This document shows positions 28,485 to 43,274 of a stretch of 64,000 bases of DNA, in pieces. A program made the translations under genes and the position numbers. The notes beneath the pieces are model-generated. The model had not been told where the DNA came from. It did not search any database and saw nothing but the letters and a program-made list of their open reading frames with translations. Each line of letters begins with the position of its first letter. Positions within the stretch are counted from its first letter, which is position 1. The DNA lies in NCBI GenBank assembly GCA_014859965.1, contig JACZKQ010000175.1:1-64000 (forward strand), read 5' to 3'. The stretch comes from Phycisphaerae bacterium (GTDB lineage: Bacteria; Planctomycetota; Phycisphaerae; Sedimentisphaerales; Anaerohalosphaeraceae).

Positions 28485-28973
28485 TTACTCCGGGCGCATC
28501 TTCTTGAGCAATTCCTTGCGGTGCAGCGCCCGAATCCGCGCATTGGCGAAACGCCGCTGCTCCTCGGCCGTTTCCGGAGTCAGGGGCGGCACGGGCGTCG
28601 GCTCTCTCTGTGCATCCAGCGCCACAAACGTCAGGTGGGCGGATGTAGCTATTACCTGCTCGCCTGTGTAGGGGTTTTCCCGGATCACCTTTACTCCCAC
28701 TTCCATCGACGTACGGCTCACGTAATTGACGCAGGCCTTGACCACGACGTGGTCCCCTACCCGGATCGGCGCTTTGAAGGCGATCGAATCCATGCCGGCC
28801 GTAACCGCCACCGTCCCACAGTGCCGCTGGGCCGCCATACCCGCCACCATGTCCATCCACGAGACGATCACACCGCCGAATGCCGTCCCGTAAGGGTTCG
28901 CTTCGTGCGGCATGAGCAGAAACCGCGACTCCACCGCACTTTCACTCGGTGCCTTGCCCTGTAATGCTTCCAT
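28485..28973 (-). CDS. hotdog-fold acyl-CoA thioesterase
   Basis: This 162-residue protein is of the YciA/BFIT-like hotdog thioesterase family, hydrolysing acyl-CoA to free acid and CoA. The core reads 'MPHEANPYGTAFGGVIVSWMD', split at residues 21-41, with the helix 'GMAAQRHCGTVAVTAGMDSIAF' and the strand 'VGDHVVVKACVNYV'. The ATG at 28973 opens the recognisable domain. The long upstream reading of this frame is a shadow of the neighbouring gene. It overlaps the 3' end of the upstream UGA-containing gene by 32 nt, so the two are likely co-transcribed. The substrate is unknown. Confidence 0.88.
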   Translation of the reverse strand: MEALQGKAPSESAVESRFLLMPHEANPYGTAFGGVIVSWMDMVAGMAAQRHCGTVAVTAGMDSIAFKAPIRVGDHVVVKACVNYVSRTSMEVGVKVIRENPYTGEQVIATSAHLTFVALDAQREPTPVPPLTPETAEEQRRFANARIRALHRKELLKKMRPE

Positions 28974-30360
28974 GTTCAGTCCACTTTGTGTCCATATAGC
29001 CCTCGGGCGTGACACGAAACTTGTACCCGCCCACGTCGCTGAAGTAAATTCTTCCCAAGCTCGCGTCAAGCCAGGCCTGCCACGCCTCCGGCGTCGGGAA
29101 CCGCTCGATCGTGTACCTTTCCAACAGGACCCGCGCCGCGCGTGCCTTGGGCTTGTCCGACAGCATGCCCACCAGCGCCTCCAGGGTCTCCACCCGGCGA
29201 TTGGACGGTAAGCCAAGTGCTTGCAGTTCTTCGTCGACCACGAACGTCTTGTCCTTGTAGATGAACTCGTAGCCGTCGAGATAATACTGCACGAGACCGT
29301 CAGGGTCGCCCTTGAACCGCTCCATGAGAGCCGGGGGAAAGGTCGCGTCGAAAAAGCTCCTGTCCCGAATTTTCGTGATGAGCGCCGCCAACCGCAGCGC
29401 ATCATCCCGATGGCTCGATTCTCGCCGCACCAGGATACCCTTGCCCTCGAAGCGGCTGATGTGGACCACACAATTCAGGAACAGCCTCCGCCCCGCCTCC
29501 GTCATTTTGGACGGCGCTGCCGAATAGCCCCATTGCAGCACATTGCCGTGCCGGCCGATCCCCACCGCTCCGTACTCCTTGCCGAAGTTCAGCCCCTCGA
29601 CAAGCACCTCGGCATCCGGCGAATCCTCAAACCCGTACTTGCGCCCAACCACGCCGCCGGAAGTTTTGCCCGTGTCCTGAACCTTCCATACCGCTATTTG
29701 TGCTGGAATCTCGGGCTCGTTGGCCAGGCGGCGGTCTGCGTAATTATCCGGGGCATCCACCATCTCAGTGTCCGGCTTAACCGGCCATGGTCCATTAAAC
29801 ACCGCATGTTCAAACGACCCAACATGGGCCGCATCACCCATGCAGTTTCACAAGTATCCCGTCTTGAGGTTCAATCGACTGCACAACATCGCACCCGGCA
29901 CGCCGACGGTCACCGTCGCCCGAACATAATCCTGCGGCAGATCGGGCTTCGGCGAACTCAGATCAAGGCCGTCATAGTCGAGAATGACTACGTCATAACC
30001 ATCCGCCTGCTCCGGGCGAAATGCCGCATAGTCCCCGCGTCCTACTTCCGCGAAATGCTCTGCCAGAAAATCGGCAAAGTCCTTCGCCCGGTCTGTTTCC
30101 GGCATTCCCGCATAGAACACCTTCAATGCCATTATTTTCCGGGCCGGTTCGCTTGCAGCAACTTCTGTCGAGTCCGGGCGATCAGCCGGGCCGACGCTCT
30201 CAGCGGCTTCGGCCGCCGTCACGGGCCGACTCGGCACCTCTGCCGAAGCAGGCTGCGGCCGAGACGCCTCGCCGCCGCCATCGCCAACCTTCTTGCGGCA
30301 TCCCAACAGCGCCGCCATACAAACCGCACATAAGAGCGCTGCCGGCAGTATCTTTTTCAT
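28942..30360 (-). CDS. ThuA-like lipoprotein with in-frame UGA; candidate selenoprotein
   Basis: Two open frames, 30360-29851 and 29847-28942, are in the same reading frame and separated only by one UGA codon (29850-29848). Read as one gene it encodes 472 residues with U171. The N-terminus has a lipoprotein signal (Leu18-Leu19-Gly20-Cys21), then a Pro/Ala/Glu-rich linker. From about residue 74 comes a ThuA- or glutamine-amidotransferase-like domain ('VFYAGMPETDRAKDFADFL', 'DVVILDYDGLDL'). The domain appears to run on past the UGA ('GDAAHVGSFEHAVFNGPW', 'VVGRKYGFEDSPDAEVL', 'GRHGNVLQWGYS'). The local sequence is KTGYL-U-N-C, a U-x-C arrangement. A hairpin follows the UGA (see separate entry). 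The ATG at 30360 has GGAG upstream. Alternatives are a nonsense mutation, a sequencing error, or two separate genes. No Sec machinery gene is in this window. Confidence 0.6.
29814..29832 (-). promoter_or_regulatory. candidate bacterial SECIS hairpin after the UGA
   Basis: In the minus-strand mRNA, starting 16 nt after the UGA, GCGGCCCA pairs with UGGGUCGU (8 bp including two G-U pairs) around a UGU loop. The loop begins 23 nt after the UGA and has G at its second position. Published bacterial SECIS rules ask for a loop about 16-37 nt downstream with G in the first two loop positions, so it fits. An overlapping 6-bp alternative (CAUGGG/CCCAUG) competes. No folding energy was computed. Confidence 0.45.
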
Positions 30361-30510
30361 AAATCCTAACTCCAGAGTAACGGAAGAAAGTTCAGACATA
30401 CTCCCCTCTATCGGCCACGGCACGCCCGGCCCGACACAAAAGGCACGTGGAATGAGCCGCCGCCCATGGACAACCTGGAAATTACACACTCTCGCTCACG
30501 CAAGCCCGGC

Positions 30511-35933: not shown

Positions 35934-36581
35934 CTACAGCGCCCTCTTTTCCTTCAACCACGCATACCACGCATCCATGCCCAGCCCGGTCCGGGCCGAG
36001 ACCTGGAAAATCGCAATGTCCTTGTGCAGCGTGCGCACATGCTCGATCACCCGCTCCAGATCGAAATCCACGTGCTCTTTCAAATCCATCTTATTGATCA
36101 GCAGCACGTCGGCCTTGGCGAATGTCCCCGGGTACTTGATCGGTTTGTCGTCGCCTTCCGGCAGCGACAGCACCACGACCCGCGCCTGCTCGCCGAGGTC
36201 GAACGCCGACGGGCACACGAGATTCCCCACGTTCTCCACGAACAGCACGTCCAGTTCCGCCGTCGCCATCGACCCGAGCGCCCGCGTCACCTGCTCCGCC
36301 GAAAGGTGGCACGCCCCCTGCGTCTCGATCTGCACAGCGGGGGCGCCCGTCTCGCGAATCTTCCTTGCGTCGGTATCCGTTCGAATGTCGCCTTCGATGA
36401 CGCCGATCCGCACCTGTCCCTGCAGGTCGCGAATCGTCCGCGAAAGGAGCGTCGTCTTACCCGAACCCGGCGAGGAAATCACGTTGATGCAGAGCGTCTT
36501 GTGACTGGCGAACAGCGCACGGTTCTGCAGTGCGCACTCTTCGTTCTTGCTCAGAATCTTTTTATTCAGTGAAACCTTCAC
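35934..36581 (-). CDS. hypB: hydrogenase nickel-incorporation GTPase HypB
   Basis: HypB is a GTPase that, with HypA, delivers nickel to the large subunit of [NiFe]-hydrogenase. The P-loop is in 'INVISSPGSGKTTLLSRTI' (about residues 33-51). The metal-site region 'ETQGACHLSAEQV' and the G-motifs 'LFVENVGNLVCPS' and 'LLINKMDL' follow. The protein (215 residues) lacks the N-terminal histidine-rich nickel store seen in some homologues. It is last in a tightly packed hyp operon, 3 nt after hypA. Confidence 0.95.
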   Translation of the reverse strand: MKVSLNKKILSKNEECALQNRALFASHKTLCINVISSPGSGKTTLLSRTIRDLQGQVRIGVIEGDIRTDTDARKIRETGAPAVQIETQGACHLSAEQVTRALGSMATAELDVLFVENVGNLVCPSAFDLGEQARVVVLSLPEGDDKPIKYPGTFAKADVLLINKMDLKEHVDFDLERVIEHVRTLHKDIAIFQVSARTGLGMDAWYAWLKEKRAL

Positions 36582-36584
36582 GCG

Positions 36585-36929
36585 CTACGTGTCCTCGAAT
36601 TCAATCTCTTCCAGCAGCAGCGGCGCATCCGGGTTCATTTTGAAATCCGCACCGCCGCACCCAGGGCACGCTGGAGAGTATATATCAAACTCGAACGTAT
36701 GGCCACAACTTTCGCACGTCGCCCGAAGCGGAACATGCCGCACCTCCAACCGCATCCCCTCGCAGGCAGTGCCCCTGGCCGCGATTTCGAACGCAAAATT
36801 CACTGCCTCGTCGTTAATCGGGTTCAGCTCGCCGCACGAGATGCGCGCCCGCAGCGGCCGAAGGCCCCGCTCCGCCGCTTCCTGGATAATCGCCTCCAGA
36901 ATGCTCTGTGCGATCATGGCCTCATGCAT
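36585..36929 (-). CDS. hypA: hydrogenase nickel chaperone HypA
   Basis: HypA is a 114-residue nickel chaperone. The N-terminus MHE provides the Ni-binding His2, and the zinc ribbon is Cys72-X2-Cys75 and Cys88-X2-Cys91 ('CESCGHTF', 'CPGCGG'). The ATG at 36929 overlaps the hypE stop (TGATG), which fixes the start. The longer upstream reading is only a shadow of hypE. Confidence 0.95.
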   Translation of the reverse strand: MHEAMIAQSILEAIIQEAAERGLRPLRARISCGELNPINDEAVNFAFEIAARGTACEGMRLEVRHVPLRATCESCGHTFEFDIYSPACPGCGGADFKMNPDAPLLLEEIEFEDT

Positions 36930-37948
36930 CAGCAGATCCTCGGCAATTCGCGCCCGTACGGCATCTGCACGACCCGCCGCCCGCCGATTACGGTAGCCAT
37001 CTCCACGATCGCCTCGTCGTCCGCCGCCTCCAGCACCCGGCCGATCACCGCCGCCTGCCGACCCAGCGCATGCGCCCTGCATGTCTCCAGAACCGCCGCG
37101 GCCGATGCCTGCGACACCACGATTATGACCTTGCCTTCGTTGGCGATGTCCAGCACGTCGAAGCCCAACATGTCGGCCGCCGCCTGCACCGCTGCGTTTA
37201 CAGGCAACTGCGTCTCGACCAGTTCGATATCGTGCCGCGCCCCCGCCGCGATCTCATTGAGCACGGCCGCCACGCCGCCGCGCGTCGCATCCCGCATGAA
37301 CCGCACGCCGTCGGTTCCCTCCAGTATCGCACACGTCAAAGGCGACAGCGCCGCACAGTCGCTCTGTATGGGCGAATCGAATTCGATGCCCTTGCGCTGC
37401 GACATGATCGCCATACCGTGATCGCCGATGGCGCCGTTGATAATGATCGCATCCCCCGCCTCAATGTGCTTCATCGACAGGTCCGCAATCCGGGTTCCGA
37501 TCCCGGCCGTATTAATGAAAATGCCGTCCGCCGCCCCGCGCTCCACAACCTTCGTATCGCCGGCGACAATCTCCACCCCCGCTTCTCGCGCCGCTTCGGC
37601 TGCACTGTCGAGGATCTTCTCCAGCAGCGCCATCTCGAAGCCTTCCTCGATGATCAGCGCCAGACTCAGCGCCACCGGACGCGCCCCGGCCACTGCCAGG
37701 TCGTTCACCGTTCCGCAGACGGCGAGTTTGCCGATATCCCCACCGTGAAAAAACAAAGGCTTGACTACGAAACTGTCCGTGGTGAAAAGAACGCTTGTAT
37801 CCCCCACCTTTACTGCCGCCGCATCCGCCAACTGCCCCAGTGTCGCGTTGGCAAACCGCGGCAGGATTTTCGTTGCAATCAGGCTCCCCATCAGCCGCCC
37901 GCCGCCGCCGTGCGCCAGCAGGATCCGTTTGTCCCGCTCCTCATCCAT
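36929..37948 (-). CDS. hypE: hydrogenase maturation protein HypE
   Basis: HypE dehydrates the HypF-made thiocarbamate on its C-terminal cysteine to a thiocyanate, the source of the cyanide ligands of the NiFe centre. It has the PurM/AIR-synthase fold with 'LLAHGGGGRLM', 'FTTDSFVVKPLFFHGGDIG' and 'MRDATRGGVAAVLNEIA', and ends in the diagnostic PRIC with the terminal catalytic Cys. That ending separates it from the related SelD. I prefer the ATG at 37948, which overlaps hypD by 8 nt. A start at 37987 is also open. Confidence 0.95.
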   Translation of the reverse strand: MDEERDKRILLAHGGGGRLMGSLIATKILPRFANATLGQLADAAAVKVGDTSVLFTTDSFVVKPLFFHGGDIGKLAVCGTVNDLAVAGARPVALSLALIIEEGFEMALLEKILDSAAEAAREAGVEIVAGDTKVVERGAADGIFINTAGIGTRIADLSMKHIEAGDAIIINGAIGDHGMAIMSQRKGIEFDSPIQSDCAALSPLTCAILEGTDGVRFMRDATRGGVAAVLNEIAAGARHDIELVETQLPVNAAVQAAADMLGFDVLDIANEGKVIIVVSQASAAAVLETCRAHALGRQAAVIGRVLEAADDEAIVEMATVIGGRRVVQMPYGRELPRIC

Positions 37949-39020
37949 TCCGACGCCTTCGTCGTCCGTATTTATACCAGGCCGCACAGGCCCCCTCGCT
38001 GCTGACCATGCACGGGCCCACCGGCGTATCCGGCGTGCACCGCGTTTCGAACATGCCGCATTCCATCGGCTGCGCCAGGCCGCACAGCACCTCGCCGCAT
38101 CGGCACCCCTGGGGCTCTTCGGCCGGGATCTCCTCGATGCCGAAACGCCGCATCGCGTCGAACTGCTCGTAAGCCTCCTTCAGCCGCAGCGTCCCCCCCG
38201 GAATCCGCCCCAGCCCCCGCCAGAAACCGTCGTACGGCTCGAAGTAGGTATCCATCAGAGCCTGAGCCGTCTTGTTGCCTTCACGACTGACCACCCCCTC
38301 GTAAATGGACACCACCTCCGGCGCATCGTTGGCCACCTGTCGGCAAATCTCGGCGATCCCTTCGATGACCTGCATCGGCTCAAAGCCCGCCACCACGCAC
38401 GGCCGGCCAAACTCCTCCACGATCGGAATATATGCGTCCGACCCGATAATCACACTCACGTGCCCGGGGCACAGAAACGCGTCGATCTGGTTGTTCTTGT
38501 CCGACAGGAGCGCCCGCATCGCCGGGATCACCAGTTTGTGCCCGCTCAGCACACAGAAATTCTTCAGGTCGCGTTTGGCCGCCTCACCCACCGCGACCGC
38601 CGTCGCCGGCGTCGTCGTCTCGAACCCGACCGCCACGAAAACCACCGTCTTGTCCGGGTGCCGCTCGGCCAGCGTCATTGCGTCTTCGCTGCTCAAAACC
38701 ACGCGAACGTCCGCCTCATGCTTCGTCTCCAGAGAGCCCGATTTGCCGGGCACCCGAACCATGTCGCCGTAGGTTGCAATGATGCAATCCTCCCGCTCGG
38801 CTAATTCCAGCACCACGTCGATAAACCCCTGATCCGTCACGCACACCGGGCAGCCCGGCCCGCTCAGAAGCTTCAACCCCTCCGGCAGCGTCGGCCGAAT
38901 CCCATTGCGAAAAATCGACACCGTATGCGTCCCGCAAACCTCCATCACATTGATCGGTCTGCCCAGGCGCAGACACGCTGCATCCATCAATCTTTGGGCT
39001 TTCATTATCCTGTTAAGCAT
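37941..39020 (-). CDS. hypD: hydrogenase maturation protein HypD
   Basis: HypD is the iron-sulfur scaffold on which, with HypC, the Fe(CN)2CO unit is assembled. The 359-residue sequence shows 'NVMEVCGTHTVSIFRNGI', 'LLSGPGCPVCVT', 'VFVAVGFETTTPAT' and the C-terminal cysteine-rich part 'GCRCGEVLCGL'. It lies 6 nt downstream of hypC and slightly overlaps hypE. Confidence 0.96.
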   Translation of the reverse strand: MLNRIMKAQRLMDAACLRLGRPINVMEVCGTHTVSIFRNGIRPTLPEGLKLLSGPGCPVCVTDQGFIDVVLELAEREDCIIATYGDMVRVPGKSGSLETKHEADVRVVLSSEDAMTLAERHPDKTVVFVAVGFETTTPATAVAVGEAAKRDLKNFCVLSGHKLVIPAMRALLSDKNNQIDAFLCPGHVSVIIGSDAYIPIVEEFGRPCVVAGFEPMQVIEGIAEICRQVANDAPEVVSIYEGVVSREGNKTAQALMDTYFEPYDGFWRGLGRIPGGTLRLKEAYEQFDAMRRFGIEEIPAEEPQGCRCGEVLCGLAQPMECGMFETRCTPDTPVGPCMVSSEGACAAWYKYGRRRRRNG

Positions 39021-39026
39021 CGCGGT

Positions 39027-39275
39027 CTAATCTACCTCTGAACCTTTTTCCTGTTCCTTCTGAAACGCATCGAACTCGGCTATAAGCTGCCACGTCTTCT
39101 GGGCCTCCACCTCCTCGATCGTGGCGATTGCAAACCCGGCATGAATCAGAACGATATCCCCCAATTGCACTCCCGGGGTCAGTGTCGTGCGGCACTTCCA
39201 TCGATTGCCCATCGCATCGACAGCCGCCCGGTCGTCTTCCAACTCCACTATTCTCGCAGGCACAGCCAAACACAT
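39027..39275 (-). CDS. hypC: hydrogenase assembly chaperone HypC
   Basis: HypC (82 residues) carries the iron unit between HypD and the hydrogenase large-subunit precursor. The invariant N-terminus MCLAVPARIVE with Cys2, and 'GDIVLIHAGFAIATIEEVEA', identify it. It sits between hypF and hypD. Confidence 0.95.
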   Translation of the reverse strand: MCLAVPARIVELEDDRAAVDAMGNRWKCRTTLTPGVQLGDIVLIHAGFAIATIEEVEAQKTWQLIAEFDAFQKEQEKGSEVD

Positions 39276-39365
39276 GCCTCACACTCCTAACCAAAACATC
39301 AACTCGCAGCTTCATCCGGATTTTCATCCGCGGCCTGCGGATACTGTTCGCTTCACATCCTGAAA

Positions 39366-41702
39366 TCAAACGAGACCGCAGTGCAGCATCCTCGCTGCGA
39401 TCGCGGCCTGTCCCAGAGCGATCCCGCCGTCATTGGCGGGCATAGTGTGCTTGTATAATACGCGAAATCCGCTCGTTTTCAACATACTTATGACGCGATT
39501 CGCCAGATAGCGGTTGCAAAAGACGCCGCCGCTCAGTGCAACCGTACACAAATCGCACTTCTCGCGAGCTGCTATCGCCAATCCCGCCAGCCCTTCCGCC
39601 AAGCCATTGTGGAACTTCACCGAGATAACTCCGGCAGGCGCCGCCCCCCGAACGTCCGCGACCAACTCACATATCATCTTACGAATGTCCAGCACTGAGG
39701 TTCCATCCGAATCCGTCTCCACGGCGGTCGAATACGCGGCCGTCACGGCACAATCGGCCGCGCTTTCAAACCGCATCGGCAATTCCGCCTCGAACCGGTT
39801 GCAGCGACCCATCCCCGCCAAAGCCGCGGCCGCATCGAAAACACGTCCCATACTCGATGTTGCAGCCGTATTGACGCCCAGGGCCAACTGCTGCGCGATC
39901 AGCCGCACCCGCCCGGCGTCCGGCTCGACCCGCGCGATCAGATCTTCGTACTCTTCAAGATAGGACTTCTCCCCTGCAAGCATGCAAAGCAGTCCCATCG
40001 CCGGCCGAATCGCCTCCTTCGCCGCCGAATCGCCGCCCGGCAGCGGGAAATAAGCCAGATGCCCCACCCTCTCGAATTCCGTCAACGAAGCCGTCAGGCA
40101 TTCGCAGCCCCATATCGCCCCGTCCGTGCCCCAGCCGGTCCCGTCGGCCACCAGCCCGATCACCCGCTCCATGCACCCATACTCCGCCAGCGCCGACGCC
40201 ACGTGCGCCCAGTGGTGCTGCACCTCGACCACCGGTTTGCCCATAGCCTTTGCATACTGCGTCGACAAGTAGCCCGGATGCAGGTCGCACGCCACCACCT
40301 TCGGCTCAATCTCGAACAGCCCCGCCAGATGTTTGACCGACGAAATGTAGTGTCGATACACCCGCGCATCGGCAAGATCGCCGATGTGCTCACTCATGAT
40401 CAACTGGCTGCCCTTGGCAAAGCAGAACGTGTTCTTCAAGTCCGCCCCCGCCGCAAACACGTCCTCCGGGCAGACGTCCTCCATCAGAACCGGAGTCGGC
40501 ACATACCCGCGGCTCCTCCGCAGAAACGCCGGCCCGCCGTCGACGATCTGCACCACCGAATCGTCCACCTGCCGATAGATGTCCCTGTCGTGGTTCAGGA
40601 ACGCATCCGCCACGTCGCCCAGCCGCGCGGCCGCCTCCGCATTGTCGCAGATCAGCGGCTCATCCGACAGATTCGCGCTCGTCATCACCAGTACCTCGAT
40701 CCCCTCCTCGGCGAACAACAGGTGATGCAGCGGCGCATAGCAGAGCATGAATCCTAATGTCGCCGTCCCCTCCGCCACCGAAGACGCAATCGCCGGCCCG
40801 CCAGCCTCCGCCGGCCCCTTGCGATCCAGCAGCACAACGGGCGCCTCTGCACTCTTCAGGAGCGCCTCGCCGGCGGCATCCACCCGCACGTACCGGCTGA
40901 TCACCTCCACCGACGCCGCCATCATCGCAAACGGCTTGTGCTCGCGCCGCTTCCGCTGGCGCAGCCGAACTACCGCCTGCTCCTGCAATGCGTCCACCGC
41001 GAGGTGAAACCCGCCCAGGCCTTTGATCGCAACAATCTTCCCCTCCCGCAGCATCGCCGCCGTCCGCGCAATCGCCGCGTTGCCGTCGCCTTCGATCACG
41101 CACCCCGCAGCATCCGCCAGCCACACCCGCGGCCCGCACGTCGGACACGCCACCGGCTGCGCATGGAACCGCCGGTCGCGGACATCCGCGTACTGAGCCG
41201 CACAGCGCTCGCACATCTTAAACGCCGCCATGGTCGTGTTCGGCCGATCGTAAGGAATCGTCCGCACGATCGAATACCGCGGCCCGCAGTTCGTGCAGTT
41301 AATGAACGGATAACGATACCGAAAATCGTCGGGGTTATTCAGTTCCGCCAGACACTCCCGGCAAGTCGCCATGTCCGGCGTCACCTGCGAAGACGCCTGC
41401 CCCCGCGCGTCGCTCGCCTCAATCGCAAAACCCGCCTCACCCTCAACCGCCTCGACGTCGCTCACCTGGCACGACGCAATCGCCATCAGCGGCGGCGGCC
41501 GCAACTCACCTTGCCCGTGCTGAAGACATGCACCGAACCGCTCCACATCCGCCGCCTCCCCCTGCACCTCGATCGTCACGCCGCGGACATCATTGCGGAC
41601 CGTGCCCGACAACCCTAACAAGGAAGCCGCCCGATAGATGAATGGCCGACACCCCACCCCCTGCACGCGGCCCGTTATTTGAATACGCTTTCTCTTCTGC
41701 AT
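39366..41702 (-). CDS. hypF: carbamoyltransferase HypF
   Basis: HypF transfers the carbamoyl group of carbamoyl phosphate to HypE. In 778 residues it has, in order, an acylphosphatase domain ('ITGRVQGVGCRPFIYRAA'), two zinc fingers ('CRECLAEL...CTNCGPRYS' and 'CERCAAQY...CPTCGPRVW'), a YrdC-like nucleotide-binding domain ('AIKGLGGFHLAVDA') and a Kae1-like domain ('VEVQHHWAHVASALAEYG', 'VALSGGVFCNRYL'). The ATG at 41702 directly precedes the acylphosphatase domain. The open frame continues far upstream, antisense to the next gene, but is not coding there. It leads the operon hypFCDEAB. Confidence 0.95.
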   Translation of the reverse strand: MQKRKRIQITGRVQGVGCRPFIYRAASLLGLSGTVRNDVRGVTIEVQGEAADVERFGACLQHGQGELRPPPLMAIASCQVSDVEAVEGEAGFAIEASDARGQASSQVTPDMATCRECLAELNNPDDFRYRYPFINCTNCGPRYSIVRTIPYDRPNTTMAAFKMCERCAAQYADVRDRRFHAQPVACPTCGPRVWLADAAGCVIEGDGNAAIARTAAMLREGKIVAIKGLGGFHLAVDALQEQAVVRLRQRKRREHKPFAMMAASVEVISRYVRVDAAGEALLKSAEAPVVLLDRKGPAEAGGPAIASSVAEGTATLGFMLCYAPLHHLLFAEEGIEVLVMTSANLSDEPLICDNAEAAARLGDVADAFLNHDRDIYRQVDDSVVQIVDGGPAFLRRSRGYVPTPVLMEDVCPEDVFAAGADLKNTFCFAKGSQLIMSEHIGDLADARVYRHYISSVKHLAGLFEIEPKVVACDLHPGYLSTQYAKAMGKPVVEVQHHWAHVASALAEYGCMERVIGLVADGTGWGTDGAIWGCECLTASLTEFERVGHLAYFPLPGGDSAAKEAIRPAMGLLCMLAGEKSYLEEYEDLIARVEPDAGRVRLIAQQLALGVNTAATSSMGRVFDAAAALAGMGRCNRFEAELPMRFESAADCAVTAAYSTAVETDSDGTSVLDIRKMICELVADVRGAAPAGVISVKFHNGLAEGLAGLAIAAREKCDLCTVALSGGVFCNRYLANRVISMLKTSGFRVLYKHTMPANDGGIALGQAAIAARMLHCGLV

Positions 41703-41749
41703 CACTGACCCAAATTGCATACGGAAAACAGCATTAAAGCTGCAAATAG

Positions 41750-41778
41750 AGAATAACCAAATCCACCAACTCCTGCAA
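41750..41778 (-). promoter_or_regulatory. candidate promoter of the hyp operon
   Basis: On the minus strand TTGCAG (41778-41773) and TATTCT (41755-41750) are 17 nt apart, about 50 nt before the hypF start. The match is moderate. Confidence 0.45.
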
Positions 41779-41841
41779 TAGCTATCACGCTCGCCGCCCC
41801 TGACAGTGCGGCCCAAAATGTGCCTGACCGCACTTCCGTGA

Positions 41842-41870
41842 TTGACGCCAGGCGCCGCCGGTGGTATTAT
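41842..41870 (+). promoter_or_regulatory. sigma-70-type promoter for the second Gfo/Idh/MocA gene
   Basis: TTGACG (41842-41847) and TATTAT (41865-41870) are 17 nt apart, 40 nt before the start at 41910. It diverges from the hyp promoter. Confidence 0.6.
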
Positions 41871-41909
41871 CAGTGTGGAAACTAATATTCCTTTGATATG
41901 GAGGAAACC

Positions 41910-43274
41910 ATGAAGACACGCCGCAACGGCAGCACTGCCGCACCCAAATCGTCCTCTCGCCGCACGTTTCTGGCCCAAACCGGCCGCGTCATGGCCGCCG
42001 GCGCCGTCGTTCAGATGCTGTCGCCGCACATCTACGCCGCCGAAAACAATACGATAAAGCTCGCCTTGATAGGCTGCGGCGGCCGAGGCACCGGGGCCGT
42101 CGCCGACGCATTCGCCGCCGCGGGCGGACCCGTCAAACTCCATGCCATGGCTGACGTGTTCCCAGACCGCCTCAGCGGCAGCCACGGCCATCTCGCCGCG
42201 GCATACCCCGACAGGGTCGACGTCCCCGCCGACCGCCGCTTCGTCGGATTCGACGGCTACAAGAAGGCCATCGACACGCTCGGCCCAAACGACATCGCGA
42301 TCCTCGCCACCCACGCCGCCTTTCGCCCCGTCCACTTCGAGCACGCGGTCAATCGCGGCGTCAACGTCTTCATGGAAAAATCCTTCGCCGCCGACTCCCC
42401 GGCCGCCCGCCGACTGCTCAAGAGCGTCGAAGTCTCCGAAAAGAAGAACCTCAAGGTCGGCGTCGGCTTCATGTGGCGCCACTCCGCCGCCCGTCAGCAG
42501 CTCATTCAGCGCATCCACGACGGGGCCATCGGCGACCTGCACACCCTCCGCATCTATCGCGTCCACGGCCCGGCCCATTGCCCGCCGCTGCCCAAAGGCG
42601 CAAATGAAACCGAATTCCAGGTCCGTCACGCCACCAGCTTCAACTGGGCGTCGTCCGGCTTCTTCATCGACTGGCACTGCCACAATGTCGACGTCGCCTG
42701 CTGGACCAAGAACGCCTGGCCCATCTCGGCCCAGGCGATGGGCGGCCGATGCTACCCCGAATCCGGAAGCCAGTTCGACCACTACACGATCGAATACACC
42801 TTTGCCGACGGCGCCAAGCTCTTCTCCTTCTCGCGGCACATGACCGGCTGCTGGGAGACCTACTCCGATTACGCCCACGGCTCAAAAGGCTCCGCCGTCA
42901 TTATGGCCACCCTGGGTGAACCCAAATCCAAACTGTACAAGAGCCAGAGAATGGTCCCGGAGGAGATGATCTGGCAGTATGGCGACCGCGACCCCAACCC
43001 ATACCACGCCGAATGGCAGGTGCTCCTCGACGCCGTCCGCAACAACACCCCCCACAACGAATCGCGCCGCGCCGTCGACGCCAGCATCGCCGCGCTCATG
43101 GGCCGCATGGCCACACACACCGGCCGCTTCGTCACCTGGGACCAGGCCTTCAACTCACAGTTCCAGTTCGTCGCCGACATAGACAGCCTGACCTTCGACA
43201 CCCCGGCGCCCATTAAGGCGGGCCCCGACGGCCGCTACGACCCACCACAACCCGGAATCACCGTCGAAATATAG
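41910..43274 (+). CDS. Tat-exported Gfo/Idh/MocA family oxidoreductase
   Basis: This second exported sugar oxidoreductase-like protein has 454 residues. The Tat signal 'SSRRTFLAQTGRVMAAGAVV' is followed by the Rossmann motif 'IKLALIGCGGRGTGAVADAF' and 'NVFMEKSFAADSPAARRLL' (Glu-Lys region). The active-site segment 'SSGFFIDWHCHNVDVACW' is also present. A GGAGG element 5 nt before the ATG at 41910 makes this start better than the ATG at 41898. The gene differs in sequence from the one at 30511, so it is not a recent duplicate. An exported aldo/keto reductase gene is convergent with it. Confidence 0.92.
   Translation: MKTRRNGSTAAPKSSSRRTFLAQTGRVMAAGAVVQMLSPHIYAAENNTIKLALIGCGGRGTGAVADAFAAAGGPVKLHAMADVFPDRLSGSHGHLAAAYPDRVDVPADRRFVGFDGYKKAIDTLGPNDIAILATHAAFRPVHFEHAVNRGVNVFMEKSFAADSPAARRLLKSVEVSEKKNLKVGVGFMWRHSAARQQLIQRIHDGAIGDLHTLRIYRVHGPAHCPPLPKGANETEFQVRHATSFNWASSGFFIDWHCHNVDVACWTKNAWPISAQAMGGRCYPESGSQFDHYTIEYTFADGAKLFSFSRHMTGCWETYSDYAHGSKGSAVIMATLGEPKSKLYKSQRMVPEEMIWQYGDRDPNPYHAEWQVLLDAVRNNTPHNESRRAVDASIAALMGRMATHTGRFVTWDQAFNSQFQFVADIDSLTFDTPAPIKAGPDGRYDPPQPGITVEI

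Follow-up and report, generated by a model that had tools for sequence, protein, structure and literature searches.

Positions 28942-30360 on the minus strand of the window (the whole 64,000-nucleotide stretch of DNA analysed here), read as a whole, very probably constitute a single gene for an exported, lipid-anchored selenoprotein, in which the in-frame UGA at codon 171 is almost certainly a site of selenocysteine (Sec) insertion. Sequence comparison puts this reading on a firm footing, namely through a recoded UGA, a Cys substitute, a covarying SECIS element, the presence of the Sec machinery, selection on the codons past the UGA, and selA-selB linkage in relatives.

Gene structure and reading frame

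The features of the gene, all on the minus strand, are as follows.

30370-30373, minus strand: putative Shine-Dalgarno sequence GGAG of the selenoprotein gene, read from the sequence
28942-30360, minus strand: selenoprotein gene, 472 residues plus stop, with Sec at position 171 and a terminal TGA at 28942-28944
30298-30360, minus strand: predicted signal peptide with lipobox LLGC (Cys21), read from the sequence; homologues have signal-like N-termini
29848-29850, minus strand: UGA codon read as Sec, residue 171, in the motif KTGYL-U-N-C; TGA fills this column at 44 distinct loci and TGC at two
29814-29832, minus strand: bacterial SECIS-type hairpin with an 8-bp stem, the loop UGU at 29822-29824, and a UGA-to-loop distance of 23 nt
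29443-30129, minus strand: predicted GATase1/ThuA-like domain, residues about 78-306, containing Sec171 and Cys173 (AlphaFold2; VIA-align Z 12.3-12.5)
29026-29373, minus strand: C-terminal HEAT-like tail, residues about 330-445 (weak profile matches; absent in some homologues)

When the TGA is taken as Sec (U), the gene forms one open frame in which codon 171 is the single internal TGA. Re-reading this frame confirmed the starting observation of the first-pass annotation, namely that two open stretches share one minus-strand frame and are split by a single TGA (29850-29848). The lipoprotein signal that had been assigned to the upstream half is indeed present: the N-terminus, MKKILPAALLCAVCMAALLGC, comprises a lipoprotein signal with the lipobox LLGC, and a GGAG (30373-30370) lies upstream of it. 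From this signal and lipobox, we infer an exported, lipid-anchored precursor; the N-termini of the family members are lipoprotein- or signal-peptide-like. The downstream half, which had been described as lacking a good start of its own, does have an ATG in the window, 9 nt beyond the UGA, but no Shine-Dalgarno sequence is visible ahead of it, and homologues carry CTG, TTG, CTC, or TTA at this codon, so that the start is not conserved. On the same strand, the selenoprotein gene overlaps at its end with the ATG of a 4HBT thioesterase (28485-28973), and a very similar thioesterase comes after the C-terminal fragment in a near relative (L022 in G019).

Conservation of the UGA column

Homologues were gathered by comparing the joined protein with near relatives, by profile searches of the class, the order, and the phylum, and by a scan of public genomes; residues at the column were called from a profile alignment of every translated frame, and the sequence after the UGA was extracted. 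In each of the near relatives G002, G019, and G043, the homologue has an in-frame TGA in the corresponding column, the near-relative contexts being KTGYL-U-NC, ATGYM-U-RC, and NGWPYT-U-QC. Overall, 44 distinct homologous loci, drawn from about 42 planctomycete genomes, have TGA at exactly the codon-171 column, and two further homologues, L037 (in G182) and L082 (in G802), have TGC (Cys) there. Among clear homologues that span the column, Cys is the only sense residue found, never Trp or Gly, and the stop is never TAA or TAG. The alignment with planctomycete homologues that had been proposed as a check thus yielded UGA or Cys at the column, with conservation on both sides of it, and the outcome that had been named as refuting the proposal, an unrelated residue such as Trp, is absent from clear homologues. 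The column therefore presents the pattern expected of a bacterial selenoprotein, an in-frame UGA that is either conserved or replaced by Cys.

The family motif is [U/C]-x-C, in which [U/C]171 and C173 are unvaried in the profile alignment, distant members included. In a 20-sequence alignment, position 171 (U/C, with the Cys homologue counted), C173, G153, G156, H185, and a few other residues are invariant. As a rule, a family gene contains one TGA. Some genomes contain several UGA-containing paralogues, namely L083 and L109 in G657, L031 and L039 in G297, and L089 in G566. Several sequences were rejected as orthologs: the G037 protein (AAT at the column; E 7e-4) is a 1026-residue distant domain relative without U-x-C, and the large open frames L145-L150 are likewise distant domain relatives in which U-x-C is missing. 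One domain of these last proteins, which are 690-1000 residues long, is a distant relative of the family's N-terminal part.

Predicted fold and possible role of Sec171

An AlphaFold2 model built from 11 sequences had a mean pLDDT of 68.5, with residues 78-306 mostly over 70. The model matched the ThuA-like structures 4jqs (Z 12.5) and 1t0b (Z 12.3) over 179-197 residues and the planctomycete GATase1-like structure 3rht (Z 11.5), and the ThuA-like matches were tied with glutamine amidotransferase domains. The fold predicted by this model is class I amidotransferase-like (GATase1/ThuA-like). None of 20 members matched the Pfam ThuA profile at E 0.1, and a PDB sequence search with the family profile returned nothing meaningful. 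True glutamine amidotransferases carry a Cys at the nucleophile elbow. The elbow of the present family is G153-V-P-G156, with no conserved Cys, which argues that the protein is not a glutaminase of the class I amidotransferase type. Of the ThuA/amidotransferase-like domain originally proposed, then, the predicted fold stands, whereas a Pfam ThuA match and a nucleophile-elbow Cys do not. In the model, the loop that carries Sec171 connects the elbow helix (153-162) to the strand that follows it (174-179), and the TGA cuts one predicted domain mid-way. Residues 330-445 weakly resemble, by profile, the W..W...NR HEAT-like tail of many planctomycete proteins, and this tail is absent from the short forms L020 and L034.

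In the exported protein, Sec171 and Cys173 would most likely form a selenenylsulfide pair and work as an extracytoplasmic selenol/thiol redox couple. The U-x-C motif is the one feature that points to this redox chemistry, whose chances we judge to be about even. Alternatively, the protein could be a selenoprotein in which Sec171 and Cys173, together with the nearby His179 and His185, make up a binding site for a metal or some other ligand, or in which Sec acts as a catalytic nucleophile, a possibility that we regard as real but distinctly the less probable. In keeping with a metal site, His179 and His185 are conserved in most members, and the spacing U-x-C-x5-H-x5-H could form one; however, Tyr takes the place of His179 in L037, L089, L092, L093, and L094, Gln does so in L029, and L093 and L094 have Asn instead of His185. 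Residues U/C171 and C173, in contrast, remain constant. The invariance of the U/C171-C173 pair, set against the variability of the histidines, therefore favours the redox role over metal binding, moderately only.

Evidence for translation beyond the UGA

When the codons 3' of the UGA in the window were compared with those of six relatives, dN came to 0.32-0.44, with dS at 1.8 or more or saturated, and the changes were commonest at the third codon position. By this comparison, the downstream codons are under purifying selection. Because selection extends past the UGA while the downstream start is not conserved, the family needs the UGA to be decoded.

These observations bear on a reading in which the TGA parts two independent genes, or in which the short product is functional and the rest is reinitiated. 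The ATG that closely follows the TGA in the window would suit such a reading, which is nonetheless very improbable: that start is not conserved, the TGA falls inside one predicted domain, the column is never TAA or TAG and is followed by a covarying hairpin, and two homologues are continuous, with Cys at this position. A pseudogene, a frameshift artefact, or a sequencing error, although the usual source of lone in-frame stops in draft genomes, is refuted by the conservation of the same TGA in 44 distinct loci, as well as by the purifying selection on the downstream codons, and deserves next to no weight.

SECIS-type hairpin

The hairpin begins 15 nt after the UGA; numbered from the UGA, nucleotides 19-26 pair with 30-37 around a 3-nt loop, which is mostly UGN in 19 sequences. 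In these 19 sequences, aligned gap-free from the UGA, the stem is standard-paired in 98.7% of cells, as compared with 32-50% in slid controls, and four stem pairs show both-sided changes (17 cells), with the proviso that the cells are not independent, because closely related rows count several times. RNAalifold recovers the same stem as the pairing count. In the distant rows L049, L050, and L051, several pairs are replaced and the stem is kept, and most of the more distant members also form a strong hairpin there, with its register slightly shifted. The bSECIS model of PMC13188914 constrains the stem length, a loop G in the first two positions, the spacing, and the folding energy, and the window hairpin, with its 8-bp stem, 23-nt spacing, and -11.7 kcal/mol, falls within all of these constraints. 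No such hairpin follows the column in the Cys homologue L037.

The 42 nt of the window, folded alone, prefer another hairpin (-15.8 kcal/mol), and the SECIS hairpin is the best window fold only when the nucleotides nearest the UGA, which would be covered by the ribosome, are held unpaired. This minimum-energy hairpin (CAUGGG...CCCAUG) was rejected as the SECIS element, since, unlike the nt 19-37 hairpin, it is not conserved in relatives. The Rfam model SECIS_1 (RF00031) had no match in the source genome or in any control genome, and its silence in the control genomes makes it uninformative on bacterial SECIS elements.

Sec machinery and genomic linkage

The presence of selA, selB, selC, and selD, which the first-pass annotation had set as a check on its proposal, was borne out: all four are found on contig C167 of the same genome, where tRNA-Sec (anticodon TCA), selD, selA, and selB lie at 30.5, 31.1, 40.5, and 42.7 kb, respectively. 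The Sec genes of the source genome are thus grouped within 14 kb (G000 C167, 30-45 kb, L131).

Within the order of the source genome, selA is present in 20 of 25 genomes that bear the gene versus 22 of 136 that do not (p = 7e-10, a value that is only indicative, because the genomes share ancestry). Of the five gene-bearing genomes without selA, three have selB above the cut-off, all at contig ends; in the gene-bearing MAGs G381 and G446 (87% and 78% complete, respectively), neither selA nor selB was found above the cut-offs used. Outside the order, selA occurs in all 16 gene-bearing genomes tested and in none of 11 near-complete genomes without the gene. As for the two genomes with the Cys form, G182 has no selA and no selB above the cut-off, and G802 seems to keep selB along with a partial selA, which suggests that Cys took the place of Sec while the machinery was retained, or that the exchange ran in the opposite direction.

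In G376, G362, and G424, the gene and selB are adjacent and convergent, with selA next to selB in the first two; in G297, the gene adjoins selB-selA, and in G442 and G441, a few kb separate it from selA. This placement beside selA or selB in relatives supports a Sec-dependent gene. For the gene in the window's own genome, selA-selB linkage was not found. Apart from selA, selB, and a small number of minor or antisense open frames, neighbourhood clustering of 35 loci gave no conserved partner. Elsewhere in the window (35934-42878, minus strand), frames that by eye resemble hypB, hypA, hypE, hypD, hypC, and hypF lie in a row, and the HypE-like frame is a weak match to the selD profile.

In the mechanism that we propose, the hairpin (29832-29814) would recruit SelB at the UGA of codon 171, and SelB would deliver selenocysteyl-tRNA, such that translation would continue into a 472-residue protein, the precursor of which would be exported and lipid-anchored. 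The original suggestion that Sec insertion would give one intact 472-residue lipoprotein is thus supported by the conserved UGA/Cys column, the SECIS-type hairpin, and the sel genes. Lineages with a reassigned UGA exist, but decoding of this UGA as some other amino acid, through a changed genetic code or unspecific read-through, is barely conceivable, given that Cys is the only sense residue at the column in clear homologues, that there is as a rule one TGA per gene and the window gene itself terminates in TGA, and that the gene has a SECIS-type hairpin and the genome the full Sec machinery.

Significance

We consider it probable that the gene represents a phylum-wide selenoprotein family of the Planctomycetota, in which a GATase1-like scaffold, unrelated to thioredoxin, has acquired Sec at a new position, the loop after the vestigial nucleophile elbow, within an exported lipoprotein of putative selenol activity whose gene travels with selA-selB in some lineages. 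Annotation routinely breaks selenoprotein genes into two pieces, as a result of which families with few Cys homologues escape notice, and nearly all members of the present family have the Sec form. An exported selenoprotein this widespread would mean that much of planctomycete selenium use is uncharted. The family offers biochemistry a non-thioredoxin Sec scaffold, and its alignment and SECIS pattern are usable by annotation pipelines for joining the halves.

Comparison with known selenoproteins

The family is new and previously uncatalogued within bacterial selenoproteins. A 2026 catalogue (PMC13188914) lists 119 prokaryotic selenoprotein families or subfamilies and takes in the families of Haft and Tolstoy 2025; none of the 119 fits by name or motif, the comparison being by name or motif only for families that have no NCBIfam or Pfam model. 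NCBIfam release 20.0 gave no match at any meaningful score, and no Pfam family matches the protein. Searches of the literature on ThuA or Planctomycetes together with selenoproteins, including the main text of PMC4807772, yielded no such family; that text, from a study of planctomycete selenoproteins, names formate dehydrogenase and formylmethanofuran dehydrogenase. The earlier remark that the protein could be new therefore holds with respect to Pfam, NCBIfam, and the 119-family catalogue.

With bacterial selenoproteins in general, the window family shares the standard decoding signals, SelA/SelB/SelC/SelD, and the existence of Cys homologues, and it differs from them in falling outside the 119 catalogued families (PMC13188914), Pfam, and NCBIfam. 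The predicted fold of residues 78-306 is like that of ThuA-like/GATase1-like proteins (1t0b, 4jqs, and 3rht; Z 11.5-12.5), although a Pfam ThuA sequence match is lacking, and no paper describing a ThuA-like selenoprotein was found in the literature. The U-x-C spacing is the same as in two entries of PMC13188914, namely thioredoxin-like Sec.2 and the SO_0444 family transporter; these are, however, separate families, and the window protein has no such Pfam or NCBIfam match. The nearest entry of PMC13188914 by fold is the CTP synthase C-terminal-region-related selenoprotein (NF004836), the other catalogued amidotransferase-type selenoprotein, which, judging from its name there, would share the class I amidotransferase-like fold. 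While the Sec motif of NF004836 is GxUxG, the window family has an elbow without Sec or Cys and instead places its U-x-C beyond the elbow helix, in the loop that follows.
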